Origin: Terriglobales bacterium
GTDB taxonomy: Bacteria; Acidobacteriota; Terriglobia; Bryobacterales; Bryobacteraceae
DNA: 64,000 bases
Direction of reading: 5' to 3'
NCBI GenBank assembly: GCA_027485675.1
Contig: JAIXQP010000006.1
Coordinates: forward strand, 62,001 to 126,000
Shown piece by piece: positions 31,356-39,920 of the stretch. The notes beneath the pieces are model-generated. The model ran no database searches. It had not been told where the DNA came from and saw nothing but the letters and a program-made list of their open reading frames with translations. Position numbers and translations under genes: made by a program. Every line of letters starts with the position of its first letter. Positions within the stretch are counted from its first letter, which is position 1.

Positions 31356-32447
31356 GTGCTGCGCGATCAATACCCGGCGCTCGCGCGGTTCACCTACTTG
31401 AACACGGCCACCTATGGCCTCGTGTCCCTCCAGGGACGCGCGGCCATGGTGGGCCATCTTGATCGCCGCGACGAGTTCGCCTGCGGCGACTTCCTCAGCT
31501 GGTTCGACGATCTCGACCGGCTCCGCGCCAAACTAGCCCGTCTGGTGGGCGCGCAAGCCAACGACATCGCGTTTGCCCCCAACGCCGCCACCCCGCTTTC
31601 GCTGCTGCTCAACGGCCTCGCCTGGGAACCCGGCGACGAGATCCTCACGCTCGAAAACGAGTTTCCTAACCAGCTCTACTTCCCCGCCCTGCTCGCCGGC
31701 CGCGGCGTGAAGTTCATCGAAGCGCCGTGGGAGCGGCTGCAGGAGCAGGTCACCGCGCGCACCCGCCTGATCGTGGCCAGTCAGGTGAGCTACTCCACCG
31801 GCTTCCGGCCGCGCCTTGAAACGCTCGACCGCCGCGACGCCCTGCTCTATGTGGATGCAACGCAGTGCCTGGGCGGGCTCACCTTCGATTGGGCCGCCGT
31901 GCGTCCGGATCTGCTGGCCGTGAACGCCTACAAGTGGATGCTGGCGCCCAACGGCGCGGCGTTCTACGCCGTCTCGCCCGCGCTCCGCGCCCGGCTCGCC
32001 CCGCAGGTGGTCGGCTGGCGCAGCCACTTCGATTGGCGCAACGTGAACAACCTCCACGCCGCCGCGCCCGTCTTCGCCGAGGCCGCCGAGAAGTACGAAG
32101 GCGGCATGGTGGATTTCCCCAGCCTGTACGCGCTCGAAGCCGCCGTCGATACGTTTTTCGAACTGGGTCCGGAGAAAGTCGAACGCTACGTTTTGGACCT
32201 GAACGAGACGCTGCGTTCCGCGCTCCGCCGGATTGACGGGGTAACGCTCTACAGCGATGAGTTCCCGGCCACCGGTCCAACGCCCATCACCAGCGCCCAT
32301 TTCGCCGGCCAGGAGGCGGGCGAGCTTTCGCGCCGCCTCAAGGCCGAACACAACATTCTCACGTCCGCCCGCTGCGGCCGCCTGCGTCTCTCGCCGCACT
32401 TCTACAACGACGAGAACGACATCGACCGGCTGCTCGCCGCGCTATAG
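31356..32447 (+). CDS. Class V aminotransferase (cysteine desulfurase-like fold)
   Basis: A 363-residue PLP enzyme. The PLP lysine lies in LLAVNAYKWMLAPNGAAF, the PLP-phosphate Asp in LLYVDATQCLGGL, and the N-terminal LNTATYGLV fits the family. No cysteine loop expected of NifS/SufS is obvious, so isopenicillin-N-epimerase-like or related members are as likely; substrate unknown. GTG 31356 is four bases after proS. Its TAG and the TAG of the convergent amidohydrolase lie in the palindrome CTATAG (32442-32447). Confidence 0.82.
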   Translation: MLRDQYPALARFTYLNTATYGLVSLQGRAAMVGHLDRRDEFACGDFLSWFDDLDRLRAKLARLVGAQANDIAFAPNAATPLSLLLNGLAWEPGDEILTLENEFPNQLYFPALLAGRGVKFIEAPWERLQEQVTARTRLIVASQVSYSTGFRPRLETLDRRDALLYVDATQCLGGLTFDWAAVRPDLLAVNAYKWMLAPNGAAFYAVSPALRARLAPQVVGWRSHFDWRNVNNLHAAAPVFAEAAEKYEGGMVDFPSLYALEAAVDTFFELGPEKVERYVLDLNETLRSALRRIDGVTLYSDEFPATGPTPITSAHFAGQEAGELSRRLKAEHNILTSARCGRLRLSPHFYNDENDIDRLLAAL

Positions 32448-33272
32448 GCCGTAGGCTTCTATCGCGTTCTTCGACAGGATCTGCTCCTGCTCGGCCGCCG
32501 AGTAGCGTTTAATGGTCTGCTTGACGAGATCCACCCACGGCTTGTACTGCCCGGCCACCAGCATCACGGGCCAATCGGAGCCGAACAGGAGCCGTTTCGG
32601 CCCGAAGGCCTGCAGCGCGGTGTCGAGATACGGCGCCAGGTCCGCCGAACTCCACTTCGTCCAGTCGGCTTCGGTGATCATGCCCGAAATCTTGCAGTAG
32701 ACATTGGGCCGCTTGCCGAGTTCGATCATGTCTTCGCGCCAGGGCGACAGGATGCGTTCCTTGATCTTCGGCTTGGCGACGTGATCCAGGATGAACATCT
32801 GGTTCGGATGCTGATCGACGAAGCGGATCGACGGCTTCAAGTGGCGTTCGAAGATCAGGATGTCGTAGCGCAGTTTGTACTTGAGCAGCTTCTTGATGCC
32901 GGCGTTGAAATCGGGCCGCAGAATATAGTTGTCGTCCGGCTCGCCTTGAATGACATGCCGCACGCCCTTGAACTTCTTGTGGGTGGCCAAGCGCTCCAGA
33001 TGCTTTTCAACGTCACTCTCCGTCAGCGGCACCCAACCCACGACGCCGCGCAGAAAGTCATGCTTTTCGGCCATCGAAAGCAGCCAGTCGCTCTCTTCGA
33101 CGGTCGTCCGCGCCTGCACGGAGATCGCACCGGAAACCCCGGCGCCGTCGAGCGTCTTCTTCAGATCCGCGGGCAAAAAGTCGCGGCGGATCGTCTTCAT
33201 CTCGTCATTGATCCAGCCGTACTCGGCAGCCGAATACTTCCAGAAGTGATGGTGCGTATCGATAATCGTCAT
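32442..33272 (-). CDS. Amidohydrolase 2 family protein (L-fuconolactonase-like)
   Basis: A 276-residue TIM-barrel metal hydrolase with the N-terminal metal motif DTHHHFWKYSAAEYGW, IRRDFLPADLKKTLDGAG, GVRHVIQGEPDD, HPNQMFILDHVAKP, and the closing LLFGSDWPVMLVAGQY. The layout matches sugar lactonases of L-fucose and related pathways. The start overlaps the stop of the DeoC-like gene by four bases, so both are translated together. The neighbouring carbohydrate-binding protein points to sugar catabolism, but the substrate is inferred. Confidence 0.88.
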   Translation of the reverse strand: MTIIDTHHHFWKYSAAEYGWINDEMKTIRRDFLPADLKKTLDGAGVSGAISVQARTTVEESDWLLSMAEKHDFLRGVVGWVPLTESDVEKHLERLATHKKFKGVRHVIQGEPDDNYILRPDFNAGIKKLLKYKLRYDILIFERHLKPSIRFVDQHPNQMFILDHVAKPKIKERILSPWREDMIELGKRPNVYCKISGMITEADWTKWSSADLAPYLDTALQAFGPKRLLFGSDWPVMLVAGQYKPWVDLVKQTIKRYSAAEQEQILSKNAIEAYGL

Positions 33273-34030
33273 GTGGCTTGGGCCTGGGCCGCCGCGCGCT
33301 TTTTCTCCGCTTCCCGTTCGGCCAGGATTCTCTTCCAATCTTCGAGGATTACGGCCGTGGCGGTGGCGCCGAAGCGGTCGCAGCCTGCATTGTATACCTC
33401 AAAGGCGCGTTCCAGCGTACGGACCCCGCCGGAGGCCTTCATCTTCACCCGGTCTTTCAGAATGGACTTCATCAGCGCCAGGTCCGGCAGCGTGTAGCCG
33501 GTGGGCGCAAAGCAGGTGGAGGTTTCGGCGAAGTCCACCTCGCAGCGCTTGCAGATCCGGCAGAGGATCACCTTGAGATCGTCGGCCAGGTAGCCGTTCT
33601 CGAAGATCACCTTGCAGAGAGCGCCTTCCTGATGACAGCTTTCGCTCATCTGCAGGATCTCGGTTTCAATATGCTGAAATTGCCGCGAGATCATCTTGCC
33701 GACGTTGACGACAAGACTGATCTCTTTGGCGCCGCGGCGGAGCAGATCGCGGCCTTCGTAGAGCTTGGTGGCGGTGTTCGACGAACCGTGCGGGAATCCC
33801 GCGACGCTCGCGACCGCCACCCCGGAGCCATCCAACGTGCGTACAGCCAGGTCCACGTCACAGGGCCGAACCAAGGCGGCGGCCACGCGGTACTCCCGCG
33901 CCAGCCACAGGCCCGCGATGACGTCCTCTTCCGAAAGGTCGGGCCGAGTCAGCGAATGCTCCATCAGCCGGGCGAGATCCTCGTAGGTCTCTAGCGCGGG
34001 CCGGGCTTCTTGTTCGATGTTCGGATCCAT
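33269..34030 (-). CDS. DeoC-family (deoxyribose-phosphate aldolase-like) protein lacking the Schiff-base lysine
   Basis: A TIM-barrel protein of about 253 residues aligned along its length with DERA: LARLMEHSLTRPDLSEEDVI, VASVAGFPHGSSN, KVIFENGYL, DLALMKSIL, KMKASGGVRT. Yet the Schiff-base lysine (ADFVKTSTG in usual members) is Glu169 here (VDFAETSTCFAP), and the catalytic Asp of EIDMV is Ser105 (KEISLVVNVGK); the second lysine (KASGG, Lys198) remains. Codons were checked on the DNA. It is therefore unlikely to be a normal aldolase. ATG 34030 is chosen; 34042 is possible. It overlaps the CBM9-like gene upstream by about 40 bases. Confidence 0.8.
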   Translation of the reverse strand: MDPNIEQEARPALETYEDLARLMEHSLTRPDLSEEDVIAGLWLAREYRVAAALVRPCDVDLAVRTLDGSGVAVASVAGFPHGSSNTATKLYEGRDLLRRGAKEISLVVNVGKMISRQFQHIETEILQMSESCHQEGALCKVIFENGYLADDLKVILCRICKRCEVDFAETSTCFAPTGYTLPDLALMKSILKDRVKMKASGGVRTLERAFEVYNAGCDRFGATATAVILEDWKRILAEREAEKKRAAAQAQAT

Positions 34031-34851
34031 ATCGTTCCCCATTCCTTTAACCGGGTTCGCCCCTTCGGCGTGCCGGTCCACCAATCTTCGTGATGAAAGT
34101 TGCCGAAGTTGCCCGCGCCGCGCTCTTTTTCGTCCAGATCGCCGAGAGCGATGTTCAAACCCATCGGGCGGTCGCCCAGGCGGGTGGAATAGAACTGTCC
34201 CGGCGCGACTTCGAGGCAGGGATCAAAGCTGATCGCCCATTCGAGGATGTAGCCCTTGCCGCCCGGCTTCACCTTCGCGGCGCAGTCCATGGCGTGCGTT
34301 TGAATCCAGCGTTGGTAGGTCGTCCAGGCTTCGAGCTTCGACCGCGGCTCGCCTTCCATCAGTCCGGCGGTTCCCACGCCGCCCAGCCGCGACTTCGTCA
34401 GGTTGCAAACCATCTGCCAGCTCTGCCCGTTGCCGGCGGCATTCTCTTCGGGCGAACTCCACCGGTTGGTGGCGTTCATCAGGATCTCCATCTCATCCCC
34501 AAACCACGGATACCCTTCCCGGGTCAGTTCGTGCGCCTTGGGATTGTTATCCGGCAGCCAGCGCGGCGTATCGATGCCGTAGAGCACATCGTCCGTCACG
34601 TCGAAGCCGAAATAGAGGCGTTTGCCATCATGCTTGACGTACCCCTTGATGGCCAGATCCTTAGGATCCGTGACCGGCGAGAAGGTGGAGATCCACCCTT
34701 GGACGCCCGCAAACGCCGTGGCGTCGGCCCACTCGCCGGGCGTGAAGACCCCGTCCACTTTCGGCGTCGAGCCGGGGAACGCTTCCATCGTCTTCGGGAA
34801 ATCCCCCGCCCAGGCCACCATCGACACGAAGAACAGGAGGCTGCGCCGCAT
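33991..34851 (-). CDS. Secreted protein with CBM9-like carbohydrate-binding domain
   Basis: A 286-residue protein with a signal peptide (LLFFVSMVAWAG) and a CBM9-type beta-sandwich: FPGSTPKVDGVFTPGEWADA, VKHDGKRLYFGFDVTDDVL, WFGDEMEILMNA, YILEWAISFDPC, MGLNIALGDLDE. Such domains bind sugar chain ends and occur in outer-membrane or secreted glycan proteins. It begins five bases after ybgF and precedes the DeoC-like and amidohydrolase genes in the same direction. Ligand unknown. Confidence 0.8.
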   Translation of the reverse strand: MRRSLLFFVSMVAWAGDFPKTMEAFPGSTPKVDGVFTPGEWADATAFAGVQGWISTFSPVTDPKDLAIKGYVKHDGKRLYFGFDVTDDVLYGIDTPRWLPDNNPKAHELTREGYPWFGDEMEILMNATNRWSSPEENAAGNGQSWQMVCNLTKSRLGGVGTAGLMEGEPRSKLEAWTTYQRWIQTHAMDCAAKVKPGGKGYILEWAISFDPCLEVAPGQFYSTRLGDRPMGLNIALGDLDEKERGAGNFGNFHHEDWWTGTPKGRTRLKEWGTIWIRTSNKKPGPR

Positions 34852-34856
34852 AGGGA

Positions 34857-35735
34857 TTACCGCTTCTTCGTGCGGGCCGGCGCGGCCGTCGAAAGCGCCC
34901 GCAGCTCCATCTTCGCCTTCGCGGCGTTTTCATGGGACGGGAATTTCTTGATCAACGTGTCGAACTCGGTGCGCGCTTCGGCCTTGAAGCCGCTCTTGAC
35001 GAGGGCGCGGCCCTTGAGCAACAAGGCATCGGAGGTCTTCACGTTGACGGGGTAGGCCTCCAGCAGCTTATCGAAAGCGGCCAGCGCCGCCGTGTAGTCG
35101 CCGCGCAGGTACTCAATCTCGCCGATGTAGAACTGCACGTTGGGAGCGAGATCGGAGTTGCCGAAGTACTGCAGATAATCCTTGAACTGGGAGATGGCCA
35201 GGTCGGCGTTACCGGACGTCCGGTCCCGCATGGCCGCATTGTAGAGCTGCTCGGCGGAAACGCCCGCGGGCGGGTTTCCGGCGGTCGGCGTGGCGCCGGG
35301 CGGCGGCGGCGGCGGGGCGCTCAGGGTACGAATGGCCTGGCTGAGATCGGAAACCTGATTCTGCAGCTTGCCCAGGCGCGAGGTGAGATCAGCCACCGAC
35401 TCGCGGACTCCCGAAAAATCGCTCGACAACTGGTCTACCTTCGAGCCCAAGCCCGCCACCGGCACTACCAGGTTTTTCTCCTGGTCTTTCAACTTGTCCC
35501 GCAGGCTGGCCTCGAGGACGGCCGTCGCCGTATTGGCCTTGTTTGCTGCATCGAGGGTCTGCTGTAGCAACACCTGAATTGCCGCCAGCTTTTCATCCTG
35601 CGAGCGCTGCAGCGACCGTACCTGGTCCTGCATCTGGAGAATATCCCGCTGCATCTCGAGGATTTCTTTCTTTTGGCCAAACACCATGGGCACGGCGAGC
35701 AGCCCGAGCAGGGCAAAACGAGAGATAGGTTTCAT
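34857..35735 (-). CDS. ybgF: Tol-Pal system protein YbgF (CpoB)
   Basis: Periplasmic partner of TolA that coordinates envelope constriction with peptidoglycan synthesis. The 292-residue protein has a signal peptide, an N-terminal coiled-coil (EMQRDILQMQDQVRSLQRSQ and following), a proline-rich linker (PPPPPPGAT), and C-terminal TPR repeats (AEQLYNAAMRDRTSGNADLA, DLAPNVQFYIGEIEYLRGDY, SDALLLKGRALVKSGFKAEA). Last gene of the tol set; a terminator-like hairpin separates it from pal. Confidence 0.93.
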   Translation of the reverse strand: MKPISRFALLGLLAVPMVFGQKKEILEMQRDILQMQDQVRSLQRSQDEKLAAIQVLLQQTLDAANKANTATAVLEASLRDKLKDQEKNLVVPVAGLGSKVDQLSSDFSGVRESVADLTSRLGKLQNQVSDLSQAIRTLSAPPPPPPGATPTAGNPPAGVSAEQLYNAAMRDRTSGNADLAISQFKDYLQYFGNSDLAPNVQFYIGEIEYLRGDYTAALAAFDKLLEAYPVNVKTSDALLLKGRALVKSGFKAEARTEFDTLIKKFPSHENAAKAKMELRALSTAAPARTKKR

Positions 35736-35807: not shown

Positions 35808-36581
35808 TTACTGCGCCACGAAGTGCGACCGGCGGTTCTTCGACCAGCAGCCTTCGTTGCTTTCCGTACAGGTCGGCCGTTCCTTGCCGTAGGAGATCGT
35901 CCGGAGCCGGTCGGCGGAAACGCCCAGCTGCGTCAGGAAATCCTTGGTGGCGGTGGCGCGGCGGTCACCCAGTCCGAGGTTGTACTCGGCCGAGCCCCGC
36001 TCGTCGCAGTGGCCTTCAATCGTCAGGGTGTTGTTCGGGAACTTACCGAAGATGGTCTTCAGAGCATCAGCGTTCTTCGTCAAGGTCGCGCGGGAGTCTT
36101 CCCGCATTTCGCTCTTGTCGTAATCGAAGTAGATGTCCTGAATGAGCTTGGAGACCATGGTTCCGAAGTCATCCGAAGGCGCCGGAGTGGCCGGCGGCTC
36201 CTTCACGGCCGGAGCGGTCACGTTGACGGTTACCGATTCCGTGACGCTGCCACCCGCGTTGGAGGCGGTCAGCGTGTAGCTGGTCGTCGACGACGGGAAG
36301 ACGCTACGGTTGCCCGAGGCAGAGACGGTGCCCAGGCCCTGGTTGATCGAGACCGTGTCGGCGCCCTTCACGTCCCACTTCAGAACGGAGGCCTGGCCCC
36401 GCTCAATGGTGCTGGGCTCAGCGGTGAAGAAGGCGATCATCGGCTTCTGCACAACCGGCTTCGGGGCTACGGGAGCGGCGGCAGCCGGAGGAGGTGGAAC
36501 GCCCACCTTCTTTCGACAACCGGCCGCGAAAAACGAAAGAGTGAGTGCGAGTGCAAGTACACTGGCGCGTCTGGTGTTCAT
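35808..36581 (-). CDS. pal: Peptidoglycan-associated lipoprotein Pal with Ig-like insert
   Basis: Outer-membrane lipoprotein that binds peptidoglycan and TolB. Lipobox FFAAGC follows a signal peptide. The C-terminal OmpA-type domain is complete (IYFDYDKSEMREDSRATLTK, LTIEGHCDERGSAEYNLGLG, DRRATATKDFLTQLG). Between them, residues about 50-135 form an Ig-like domain (IAFFTAEPSTIERGQASVLK, TSYTLTASNAGGSVTESVTV) not present in E. coli Pal, making it 257 residues long. GAGGAGG lies 11 bases before ATG 36581. It lies between tolB and ybgF. Confidence 0.95.
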   Translation of the reverse strand: MNTRRASVLALALTLSFFAAGCRKKVGVPPPPAAAAPVAPKPVVQKPMIAFFTAEPSTIERGQASVLKWDVKGADTVSINQGLGTVSASGNRSVFPSSTTSYTLTASNAGGSVTESVTVNVTAPAVKEPPATPAPSDDFGTMVSKLIQDIYFDYDKSEMREDSRATLTKNADALKTIFGKFPNNTLTIEGHCDERGSAEYNLGLGDRRATATKDFLTQLGVSADRLRTISYGKERPTCTESNEGCWSKNRRSHFVAQ

Positions 36582-36652
36582 CCTAAAATTTGCCTCCTCA
36601 GTTCTGCTGCAATGCGGTTCTGTTTTGTAATTCTCAAAAACTCGGAGCCGGC

Positions 36653-38008
36653 TTACTTTGTCCATACCGGCTTTTCGTTCACTCCGGCAGAAGTCAACTG
36701 CCGAAGTTGTGTTCCGTCAGCAAGCATCGACCAAATCTGCATCGAGCCGCTTCGATTGGACGAAAAAACCACGTGCCGGCCATCCGGCGCCCAAGTCGGA
36801 TTTTCGTTCCGCCCGGCACCCTGGGTGAGTTGCACGTATTCTCTCGTCGCTACATCCATTATGAAGATATTCCAATTACCGGGCGAGTAGCCCCTCGTCC
36901 ATGCGAAGGCCATGTGCGACCCCTGCGGATTCCAAGAGGGATTGGAGGCTTCTCCTTCTCCGGTGGTCAGACGCGTAACGTCTGTACCATCAATATTCAT
37001 TTTATATATTTGTTGGGGTCCGCCGCGACCCGAAACGAACAATATCTCATTTCCGGTCTTCGGGTTGATTTTCGGCTCCACCTCGATCGACCGGGTATTG
37101 GTCAGCCGCTCGAGCTTGCTGCCGTCGCTGTTGGCCCGGTACAGTTGGGCCCAGCCGCTGGCCGTCGACGAATAAATGATCTGCTTGCCGTCCGGCGTAA
37201 ACGCGGCGGTGGCGTTCATCGAAGCCCGCTGGTTGTAGAACGGAATCTTCCGGCCGGTTTCGAGCGAGTGCACGACGATCTGCGGCGCGCCACCAGCAAA
37301 ACTGGTGAATGCCAGCCGCGTACCGTCCGGCGAAACGTTCGGCATTGTGACCAGATTTTTGTAAAAAGTAAACTGTTTTTGATTCGAGCCGTCGTAGTCC
37401 ATTACCCAGATCTCCTTCGATCCAGAGCGGTTCGACACAAAGTAGATCTTCGATCCCGCCAGACTCTCCACGCCAAACTGCCGCAGAATGTCCGTGGCGA
37501 ACTCGTGCGCGACCTTTCGCGCGCCTTCCTCATCGAGCGAACCGTGATAGATCTTCCCGATTACCTGCGCCCCGGAAACTTCGGGCTGCCGGACGTTGAA
37601 CAACCAACCAAATAGTACCATTTGGTTGTCCTGCTCCGCCGTATAGCCGAAGGCGAGGAAGTCGCTGCTCACCGGCGGTTCGCTCCAATCGAGTAGCCAC
37701 GGCGCCCGCGTCCGGTTATTCGGGTCATACTGCAGCGGCTTCCGGAAATCCTCCGGACGCTGCGGCACATTCAACGGAAACATGCTCTTCGGCGCCATTT
37801 TGAAGACGCCGGCCTGGTCAATGTCGCTAAACAGGGTCTCGTTGAAGGTGGCGGCGAAATTGCCGGCCCGGCCCGCTCCCCGAAAATCCGGAATCGCAAT
37901 CACCGCCTTCTGACCGCCGACGATCCGGCCTACGATGTCAGCGCCCTGCTGACCGTAAGCCAGCGAGGCCGCAACCGCAAAGAGACAAGGGAGAATAAAG
38001 TTCTTCAT
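36653..38008 (-). CDS. tolB: Tol-Pal translocation protein TolB
   Basis: Periplasmic beta-propeller of the Tol system that shuttles between TolA and Pal. The 451-residue protein has a signal peptide, an N-terminal anticodon-binding-like domain, and propeller repeats of WD40/TolB type: IYFVSNRSGSKEIWVMDYDG, VSPDGTRLAFTSFAGGAPQI, FTPDGKQIIYSSTASGWAQL, ILFVSGRGGPQQIYKMNIDG, WAPDGRHVVFSSNRSGSMQI. The start overlaps the tolA stop by four bases (38005-38008). Confidence 0.96.
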   Translation of the reverse strand: MKNFILPCLFAVAASLAYGQQGADIVGRIVGGQKAVIAIPDFRGAGRAGNFAATFNETLFSDIDQAGVFKMAPKSMFPLNVPQRPEDFRKPLQYDPNNRTRAPWLLDWSEPPVSSDFLAFGYTAEQDNQMVLFGWLFNVRQPEVSGAQVIGKIYHGSLDEEGARKVAHEFATDILRQFGVESLAGSKIYFVSNRSGSKEIWVMDYDGSNQKQFTFYKNLVTMPNVSPDGTRLAFTSFAGGAPQIVVHSLETGRKIPFYNQRASMNATAAFTPDGKQIIYSSTASGWAQLYRANSDGSKLERLTNTRSIEVEPKINPKTGNEILFVSGRGGPQQIYKMNIDGTDVTRLTTGEGEASNPSWNPQGSHMAFAWTRGYSPGNWNIFIMDVATREYVQLTQGAGRNENPTWAPDGRHVVFSSNRSGSMQIWSMLADGTQLRQLTSAGVNEKPVWTK

Positions 38009-38775
38009 CGCTGTAGTTGAAATTGAAATTCTACGTTCGCTGAATCCCGCTCAAACTCGCGCGGCAGCGGGGGAAAAGGGGAGGCTTCCTGCACCGCCCG
38101 CTGCGCGGAGTAATCGAGTGGCATGATGCCGCTGCGTTGCGACACCCTGATGTTACGGACGCTGCCGTCCCGCAAAATGTCGAAGGTCACCGCAACAAGA
38201 TTGGCCGTGCGGATGTTCGGGTCGATGTCGTTCGTCCGCCACTTCTCGGCGATCCGCCGTTTGATCAGATCGGCATAGGCGCCGAAGCGGGTGCCGAGCG
38301 GCGTTCCCGTGCCAATGCCCACGCCACCCGCGCCGGGAACACCGAACATCGGATTGGACATCGTGCGGCCCACCGTGGTTTTCAATTCGTTCGTGCGGTC
38401 CACTTCTTTCGGCCGGTACCGATTCTGTTCGGCCGCCACGTCGGCCATCCGCCGCTTCTCCCGCTCCGTCTTCAGCGCAATCGCCTTGGGGTCTTCCTTC
38501 GGCGCCGTCTTCTCCGGCTCCGGTTCCTTCTGCTTCACTTCCGATTCCGTCTCGGCCGCCACCGGATTCGGCCGCGCCTGCCGCACCATCAACGGAATTT
38601 TACTCACCGGCGTAATCGCGAATCCGCCGCCCGGCAACGCGTTCGGGTCGCCCCACTCTTCCCGCTGAAAATTCGGCAGGATGCCGTAGCCGATGATGAC
38701 TCCCATCACCACCGCGTGCAGCACGATGCTCTGCACCAGGGGCGCCCGGGAGCTGCGCTGCCGTGCTGCGATCAT
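38005..38775 (-). CDS. tolA: TolA-like energy transducer with TonB-type C-terminus
   Basis: A 256-residue bitopic protein: one N-terminal membrane helix (LVQSIVLHAVVMGVIIGYGI), a Lys/Glu/Pro-rich periplasmic stretch (VKQKEPEPEKTAPKEDPKAI), and a C-terminal TonB/TolA domain (VAVTFDILRDGSVRNIRVSQ, LDYSAQRAVQEASPFPPLP). It transmits proton-motive energy from TolQR to the outer membrane. Much shorter than E. coli TolA. It overlaps the tolR stop by four bases. Position in the tol operon favours TolA over TonB. Confidence 0.88.
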   Translation of the reverse strand: MIAARQRSSRAPLVQSIVLHAVVMGVIIGYGILPNFQREEWGDPNALPGGGFAITPVSKIPLMVRQARPNPVAAETESEVKQKEPEPEKTAPKEDPKAIALKTEREKRRMADVAAEQNRYRPKEVDRTNELKTTVGRTMSNPMFGVPGAGGVGIGTGTPLGTRFGAYADLIKRRIAEKWRTNDIDPNIRTANLVAVTFDILRDGSVRNIRVSQRSGIMPLDYSAQRAVQEASPFPPLPREFERDSANVEFQFQLQR

Positions 38776-39218
38776 CGTTTCCTGCGGCCGGCTTCATCCA
38801 CCGGCTGGGTGACCATCCGCACGTCCAGCTTCGCTTCGCCGAGCTGCGACACCACTTGCGCAATCGGATCCCACGGCGTCGCCTTGTCGGCGCGCACATA
38901 GACCGCCTTCTGCCCCGGGAACCGCTGCTTCACCACGTCGCCGAGCTCGTTGATGTTCACGGCCTTCTCGTTCAACTGCATCTCACCTTCGCGCGTGATG
39001 GTCACCACCGGCAGATCCTCGGCCGACTGCCGCACCTGCTTCACCTTCGGCACGTCCACTTCGAGGCCGAACTCCATCACATGCGCCGTCAACATGAAGA
39101 TGATCAGCAGCACCAGCACGACGTCCACCAGCGGGATGATATTGATCTCGGCTAACGCCGTCGTCGAACCCCGAAATCGCGATCCGCGTCCGCCCCGGCT
39201 TCCCATTGAAAATGCCAT
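38772..39218 (-). CDS. tolR: TolR/ExbD family protein
   Basis: A 148-residue protein with one membrane helix carrying the essential aspartate (INIIPLVDVVLVLLIIFML) and a periplasmic domain (VVTITREGEMQLNEKAVNI). With TolQ it forms the proton-driven motor of the Tol system. A Gly/Arg-rich stretch precedes the helix. It follows tolQ by three bases. Confidence 0.94.
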   Translation of the reverse strand: MAFSMGSRGGRGSRFRGSTTALAEINIIPLVDVVLVLLIIFMLTAHVMEFGLEVDVPKVKQVRQSAEDLPVVTITREGEMQLNEKAVNINELGDVVKQRFPGQKAVYVRADKATPWDPIAQVVSQLGEAKLDVRMVTQPVDEAGRRKR

Positions 39219-39221
39219 CGG

Positions 39222-39920
39222 TTAGCCCTCGTACGCGCGTTCCACCATGTTCAGGAACTCGAGCGAAAAGTCCTCGAGCCGGGCGCCGATCTCGCGAACG
39301 GAAGCGCCGAAGTAGTTGTAGAAGATCGCCGCCGGAATCGCCGCCGCGAGGCCGGCCGCCGTCGCCACCAGCGCCGCCGCAATGCCCGGGCCCACGGCCC
39401 GCAGGCTCGCGCTGCCCGCCGAACTCAACGCCTGAAAGGCGTCGATGATGCCCAGCACCGTGCCGAAAAGACCGATAAACGGAGTAATCGCCGCGATCGT
39501 CGCGAGCCAGTTCAGGCTGGTTTCCAGGTCGCTGATCTCCTGGCTGATGCCGATCTGCAGGCTCCGTTCAATCGCCGTCCGGTTCGTCAGCTTGCCTTTG
39601 CCGCGCACTTGCCGGTCCACCTCCGCCCAGCCCGCGTCGAAGACGCCCACCACGGGCGCCGTCGGGTACTGCTCACAGGCGGCCGTAATCACGTTCACGT
39701 CCGGCGCCTTGCGGAAGGTCCGGAGGAACTTGCCGTTCTCATCGGTGGCCTTCTTCAAGCGGCCGTATTTTTGAAAAACAATCGTCCAGGAGAACAAGGA
39801 CGAAGCCACCAGCAGCGCCAGCACCGCCAGGGATATCGGGTTATCGGAGCTGATAATACTCCACCAGCTGGGACCAGCCGGAGGGGCGGCTGCGGTCAAG
39901 AGGATAAAGGCGATCAACAA
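39222..39920 (-). CDS. tolQ: TolQ/ExbB family proton channel protein
   Basis: A 232-residue inner-membrane protein with three helices: ISLAVLALLVASSLFSWTIV near the start, and LATIAAITPFIGLFGTVLGI and GIAAALVATAAGLAAAIPAA towards the end, the conserved MotA/TolQ/ExbB region. First gene of the tol operon. It starts with TTG 39920, supported by GGAG six bases upstream; a good promoter lies just before. Confidence 0.94.
   Translation of the reverse strand: MLIAFILLTAAAPPAGPSWWSIISSDNPISLAVLALLVASSLFSWTIVFQKYGRLKKATDENGKFLRTFRKAPDVNVITAACEQYPTAPVVGVFDAGWAEVDRQVRGKGKLTNRTAIERSLQIGISQEISDLETSLNWLATIAAITPFIGLFGTVLGIIDAFQALSSAGSASLRAVGPGIAAALVATAAGLAAAIPAAIFYNYFGASVREIGARLEDFSLEFLNMVERAYEG

Follow-up and report, generated by a model that had tools for sequence, protein, structure and literature searches.

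A DeoC-family protein without the Schiff-base lysine, encoded behind tol-pal-cpoB in Acidobacteriota: a predicted pseudoenzyme in a clade with apparently repeated loss of catalytic residues

Results

The deoC locus and its product

The window analyzed here, a stretch of 64,000 nucleotides from contig JAIXQP010000006.1 of a Terriglobales bacterium, carries on its minus strand a run of genes in the order tolQ, tolR, tolA, tolB, pal, cpoB, a gene for a predicted exported protein, deoC, and an amidohydrolase gene, with gaps that are short or negative (Table 1). The stop of deoC overlaps the start of the amidohydrolase gene in a shared ATGA, and its start lies 40 bp inside the 3' end of the exported-protein gene (33991-34851). 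Searches of Pfam and NCBIfam with the predicted exported protein gave no match, and the PDB search gave none better than E 0.7. A protein of this type sits between cpoB and deoC in many relatives. The eight closest relatives that were examined carry the amidohydrolase gene next to deoC, free of stops and 91-96% identical. The idea that this gene and the neighboring aminotransferase gene are decaying was rejected, as both are without stops in relatives.

Table 1. Features of the deoC locus in the window
Feature	Position	Strand	Basis or remark
Amidohydro_2 protein	32442..33272	-	resembles L-fucono-lactonase, under the cutoff of that model
DeoC-family protein without the Schiff-base lysine (253 aa)	33269..34030	-	ORF translation, NCBIfam profile, structure model
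Codon 198 AAG (Lys), second active-site lysine, retained	33437..33439	-	sequence, translation
Codon 169 GAA (Glu), Schiff-base lysine site	33524..33526	-	sequence, translation, alignment to DERAs
Codon 105 AGT (Ser), catalytic Asp site	33716..33718	-	sequence, translation, alignment to DERAs
Predicted exported protein	33991..34851	-	sugar-binding (CBM9-like) by eye only
cpoB/ybgF-like	34857..35735	-	name by eye
pal-like	35808..36665	-	name by eye
tolB-like	36653..38008	-	name by eye
tolA/TonB-like	38005..38775	-	name by eye
tolR-like	38772..39218	-	name by eye
tolQ-like	39222..39920	-	name by eye

The deoC product matches NCBIfam TIGR00126 (deoC) at 172.5 bits (cutoff 117.3), and its Pfam DeoC score of 21.4 is under the cutoff of 23.8. 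Five alignments to solved DERAs place Glu169 under the Lys of the K-T-S-T motif and Ser105 under the Asp of E-[VI]-D-M-V. The D-H-S-L motif has lost its Asp as well, with E24 in its place. We take Ser105 to correspond to E. coli D102 and Lys198 to E. coli K201. The Schiff-base lysine of E. coli DERA, the counterpart of Glu169, is K167 (PMC7671976).

A preliminary description of this DNA had reported Glu169 in place of the Schiff-base lysine, Ser105 in place of the catalytic Asp, and a retained Lys198. The GAA codon and the five alignments confirm the first of these, the AGT codon and the alignments confirm the second, and the AAG codon confirms the third. Residue 105 is not conserved, though: in the nine closest proteins, it is Ser in one, Gly in three, and Ala in five. 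E169 is neither chance nor a read error, since eight close relatives (87-95% identical) carry it too.

The window protein was modeled as a complete, confident barrel (mean pLDDT 96.3), which is consistent with the earlier statement that the barrel scaffold remains. All 50 PDB matches listed by the structure search were DERAs or entries titled aldolase, with TM-scores of 0.75-0.84 by query length and 26-36% identity. Compared to DERA (DeoC, TIGR00126), the window protein has the same TIM-barrel fold, the DeoC profile, and the lysine of strand 7 (K198, in KASGG), but it lacks the Schiff-base lysine of strand 6 (E169) and the catalytic Asp of strand 4 (S105) and carries conserved residues specific to its clade. 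These substitutions lend good support to the earlier view that the protein does not work as a usual type of aldolase, and that view is probably correct.

Other DeoC copies in the same genomes

The window genome encodes two further DeoC paralogs in which the catalytic Asp, the Schiff-base Lys, and the second Lys (D, K, and K) are intact. A second, higher-scoring DeoC with D, K, and K was found in 28 of the 30 genomes that hold the window branch. The branch gene itself passes the TIGR00126 cutoff in 22 of these 30 genomes, though it lacks the Schiff-base lysine in 29, which is a warning on the use of this curated equivalog. The exception, in G215, retains the Lys and is without the Asp and the second lysine. 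The search found no DeoC with the lysine in G009 and G016, two genomes of the window genus that are listed as 97% complete; the gene without the lysine (hereafter K-less) was the only match there. A prozyme, that is, a dead subunit that activates a live DERA paralog, was rejected as a general explanation because these two genomes have no other DeoC match.

Relatives linked to tol-pal

Homologs were collected from 101 genomes of relatives (91 with a match at E <= 0.001), from 237 family genomes (101 with a match at E <= 1e-50; two places, G101 contig 459 and G244 contig 72, were left unfetched), and from named contigs, where the best 80 of 568 matches were used. After matches of <120 residues and near-copies were dropped, 150 distinct homologs were left, including those from the best 80 of 568 contig matches. 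A homolog was scored as linked when pal, cpoB, tolB, or a gene of the 33991-34851 type lay within 2.5 kb on the same strand, and 89 of the 150 were linked. When a quick tree was rooted with a canonical DERA from the window genome, the linked branch formed a clade of 97 rows (SH-aLRT 97). Gene linkage with tol-pal-cpoB, as for a Tol-Pal component, was scored in 89 of these 97 rows. Beside the clade stand 52 unlinked relatives from several phyla. Titles of named clade members, among the best 80 of 568 contig matches, include Bryobacteraceae, Bryobacterales, Candidatus Solibacter, Candidatus Sulfopaludibacter, Terriglobia, and Acidobacteria bacterium; the window DeoC branch sits 3' of tol-pal-cpoB in Bryobacteraceae-type Acidobacteriota. 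Two clade members not scored as tol-pal-linked, L196 and L200 (G194 and G193), carry T in place of the Schiff-base lysine and E in place of the catalytic Asp.

The tol-pal operon upstream is the common neighbor of the K-less loci, a set that linkage also helped to define. Downstream genes were surveyed up to 1.5 kb on the same strand, with nine rows near contig ends left out. The 49 K-less linked loci are followed by an AroD-AroE fusion in 19, an amidohydrolase of the window type in nine, another Amidohydro_2 subfamily in four (two adjacent, one 1.1 kb on, and one a weak match 1.2 kb on), and neither in 17. AroD-AroE follows 26 of the 34 linked loci with the lysine (K-type), the other eight having neither, and three of the 58 unlinked loci.

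Repeated loss of the catalytic residues

The Schiff-base Lys is missing in 55 of 96 readable clade rows versus none of the 52 unlinked relatives, all of which retain D, K, and K. Ten letters replace it: E in 15 rows, S in 13, V in seven, R, Q, and A in four each, G in three, T and C in two each, and H in one. Among the 89 linked rows, the Lys is present in 36, absent in 52, and cut in one, and all three residues are present in 33. One homolog on a cut contig (L132) was kept out of the residue counts and the careful tree.

Parsimony on this careful tree (102 rows, trait columns removed) required 14 changes for the Lys site (the middle 95% of 1000 bootstrap trees gave 13-15, and the minimum was 13), 11 for the Asp site, and 10 for the second Lys. 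A stricter count, of changes forced by starred branches of the quick tree, gave six, eight, and four, respectively. The Lys appears to have been lost many separate times while the protein stayed conserved. Lys198 is present in 41 of the 52 K-less linked proteins and was lost in 11 (Q in five, E in five, and D in one). A reverse charge swap, K at 169 with Glu at 198, is seen in L187 and L197, compared to E169/K198 in the window protein.

Selection on the K-less proteins

The reading frame is open in every one of the 55 K-less proteins and spans at least 227 aa. Values of dN/dS were calculated pairwise by the Nei-Gojobori method, which is rough where dS is above 1, as it is in several groups. 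Across eight close genomes, deoC had a dN/dS of 0.079, like its tol-pal neighbors (tolQ 0.078, tolR 0.035, tolA 0.087, tolB 0.034, pal 0.094, and cpoB 0.057); the exported-protein gene had 0.081 and the amidohydrolase gene 0.041. Among nine further K-less groups, seven had medians of 0.059-0.19, and the other two, each a single pair, had 0.33 and 0.38. Values ran from 0.04 to 0.11 in five linked groups of K-type, and two unlinked groups had 0.08 and 0.18. Given its low dN/dS and complete modeled barrel, the window deoC is not a decaying pseudogene. L118, a far more degraded clade member, is also still modeled as a full barrel (pLDDT 93.8).

An enzyme homolog that lacks the catalytic residues and is under purifying selection, if weaker in the two pairs at 0.33 and 0.38, has the marks of a pseudoenzyme. 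From these sequence features, we infer that the window-genus protein is a DERA-fold pseudoenzyme, with a predicted absence of activity.

Residues acquired by the linked clade

Sites were called ancestral when invariant in both the unlinked and the K-type linked proteins and acquired when gained by the linked clade. In the 52 linked K-less proteins, the median retention was 0.96 for 24 acquired sites versus 0.80 for 52 ancestral sites (p=0.010 with site 169 removed, since its loss defines this set; p=0.008 with it included). Using one row per loss lineage (18 hand-picked rows), retention was 0.89 versus 0.78 (p=0.030), and the contrast gave p=0.049 when the four catalytic sites were removed. 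The better retention of acquired sites is a modest trend, and it appears to hold in each of these comparisons. Active-site positions were among the worst retained (D24 0.33, D105 0.37, N145 0.35, G178 0.46, A200 0.23, and T225 0.48), and some core sites erode equally (I110 0.25). Eight acquired residues had a retention of 1.0: D58, R94, R99, R116, F118, E124, Q127, and R162. R98 was also fully retained but fell just below the acquired-site cutoff, and the acquired positions 74, 149, and 156 also get lost.

Many of the acquired residues are polar and lie on or beside helices 2-4 (R55, D58, D60, Y91, R94, D95, R99, R116, F118, E124, and Q127, with R98 joining by a looser cut), while R162 and W232 lie elsewhere. 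They persist in K-type and K-less members alike. On helical wheels, the direction of the acquired polar residues differs from that of the hydrophobic face by 117 degrees for helix 3 and by 148 degrees for helix 4; for helix 2, the hydrophobic moment is weak. In the modeled barrel, the acquired residues may form a contiguous surface patch.

Discussion

We consider it probable that an aldolase of this family gained a second, non-catalytic role and then repeatedly lost catalysis, leaving a pseudoenzyme in the window genus. A competent DeoC paralog would have been placed behind tol-pal-cpoB in the ancestor of the Bryobacteraceae-type Acidobacteriota. The tol-pal-linked DeoC would then have gained new conserved residues, many of them polar, on or beside helices 2-4. 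These would most likely serve the second role, as a candidate surface to which a protein partner could bind or through which a new oligomer could form. Many lineages would then have lost catalysis, the window genus through K169E and the loss of Asp105 and Asp24; catalysis may have become dispensable because the second role was fixed and another DERA is usually present in the genome. A bifunctional DeoC ancestor is the simplest account.

Another possibility, raised in the preliminary description, is that the protein acts as a new lyase or isomerase for its lactonase-like and sugar-binding neighbors. In this reading, the E169/K198 pocket would catalyze a different reaction coupled to the downstream amidohydrolase. 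K198 is indeed present in all 15 linked E169 proteins, and the amidohydrolase gene is ATGA-coupled and intact in the eight close relatives (91-96% identical; dN/dS 0.041). However, E169 is restricted to one clade of 20 rows (15 E, three S, and two V), made up of the window genus and three rows of other genera, and residue 105 in the 15 linked E169 proteins is A in five, S in five, G in three, and N in two. Nine other letters (S, V, R, Q, A, G, T, C, and H) stand at 169 in other lineages, several phosphate-site and pocket residues erode, and the loop after the site is partly lost in the E169 proteins L104 and L033 and the S169 proteins L038, L039, and L041. Nor is the amidohydrolase a constant neighbor, being of the window type at only nine of 49 K-less loci. 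Because the Lys has given way to ten letters and residue 105 is variable even in the nine closest proteins, Glu or Ser as a shared replacement catalyst was rejected, and either residue is unlikely to be a new catalyst. A new enzyme is not supported as a general explanation, and we think it improbable, though Lys198 may take part in some pocket chemistry. If instead Lys198 on strand 7 were now the Schiff-base lysine, the protein would still be a class I aldolase. It is kept in every window-genus linked protein read, even where adjacent residues erode, and the lysine of KDPG aldolase has reportedly been moved between neighboring strands by engineering. Against this, K198 is lost in 11 of the 52 K-less linked proteins (about 10 changes on the tree), and Asp105 is gone as well. 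No linked protein has E at both 169 and 198; a K-E salt bridge between these sites would account for this and for the co-occurrence of K198 with E169 and fits as well as catalysis. A moved nucleophile therefore seems very unlikely to us.

Relaxed selection would make deoC a redundant second DERA copy that drifts, its frame kept only to couple the translation of neighboring genes. The intact DeoC elsewhere in 28 of 30 genomes, the overlaps of deoC with neighboring genes at both its start and stop, the lack of a match at E <= 1e-50 in 136 of the 237 family genomes, and the two K-less pairs at dN/dS 0.33 and 0.38 all point this way. Yet dN/dS is 0.059-0.19 in the other K-less groups, the frames are open in all 55 K-less proteins, and many acquired residues are near-invariant, so we give drift little chance of being the explanation.

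The link of the K-less DeoC to Tol-Pal is one of gene position, which is no proof of a functional tie, and linkage was part of the definition of the set. A tentative idea, which we hold to be rather doubtful, is that Acidobacteriota recruited a cytoplasmic aldolase paralog to regulate the Tol-Pal envelope machine or its expression, or to serve as a scaffold for it, and discarded its catalysis about 14 times. If it were true, these lineages would be bacterial natural replicates of one enzyme-to-pseudoenzyme step.

The aldolase domain of adducin is an animal class II aldolase of another superfamily than DeoC. It is described as an aldolase fold that has become a domain for binding proteins and has no catalytic function; its likeness to the K-less DeoC is that of an aldolase fold repurposed without catalysis (PMC12599920). 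The fungal Ssd1 pseudonucleases of the Dis3L2/RNase II family are described as having conserved a non-catalytic function while losing catalysis at least four times independently (PMC8097288). The linked DeoC follows a similar pattern, with repeated catalytic loss in a protein that is kept, but it is a bacterial aldolase rather than a fungal nuclease, with about 14 inferred losses and a putative second function. LsrF, a DERA relative with a class I aldolase-fold TIM barrel, is described as having an exact role not evident from sequence; unlike the window protein, it retains its catalytic lysine, K203 (PMC2728841).

Intact and catalytically stripped proteins occur side by side in one linked orthologous group, in which about 14 independent losses are inferred. 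The proposed order, new residues first and loss of catalysis later, is directly testable because the linked orthologs include both states. The protein accompanies the Tol-Pal operon in a phylum that is abundant in soil; in a search of the open-access literature by title and start of abstract, no report of a DERA lacking the lysine or of deoC together with tol-pal was recognized, which does not prove that there is none.

Among the 61 unlinked rows, the neighbors of four lysine-bearing relatives (L031, L044, L111, and L112) were looked at and include ROK, GFO/IDH/MocA, xylose-isomerase-like, GH130, or SIS genes. With such genes beside them, the members of this branch may act on a substrate other than deoxyribose-5-phosphate, and the unlinked relatives may not be true DERAs. 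The AroD-AroE fusion (type I 3-dehydroquinase / shikimate dehydrogenase) follows deoC on its 3' side at 45 of the 83 tol-pal-linked loci with enough sequence, for example at L059:7402-8946. In the window genome, a fusion that is 64% identical lies on another contig (G000 contig 22:1792-3306).
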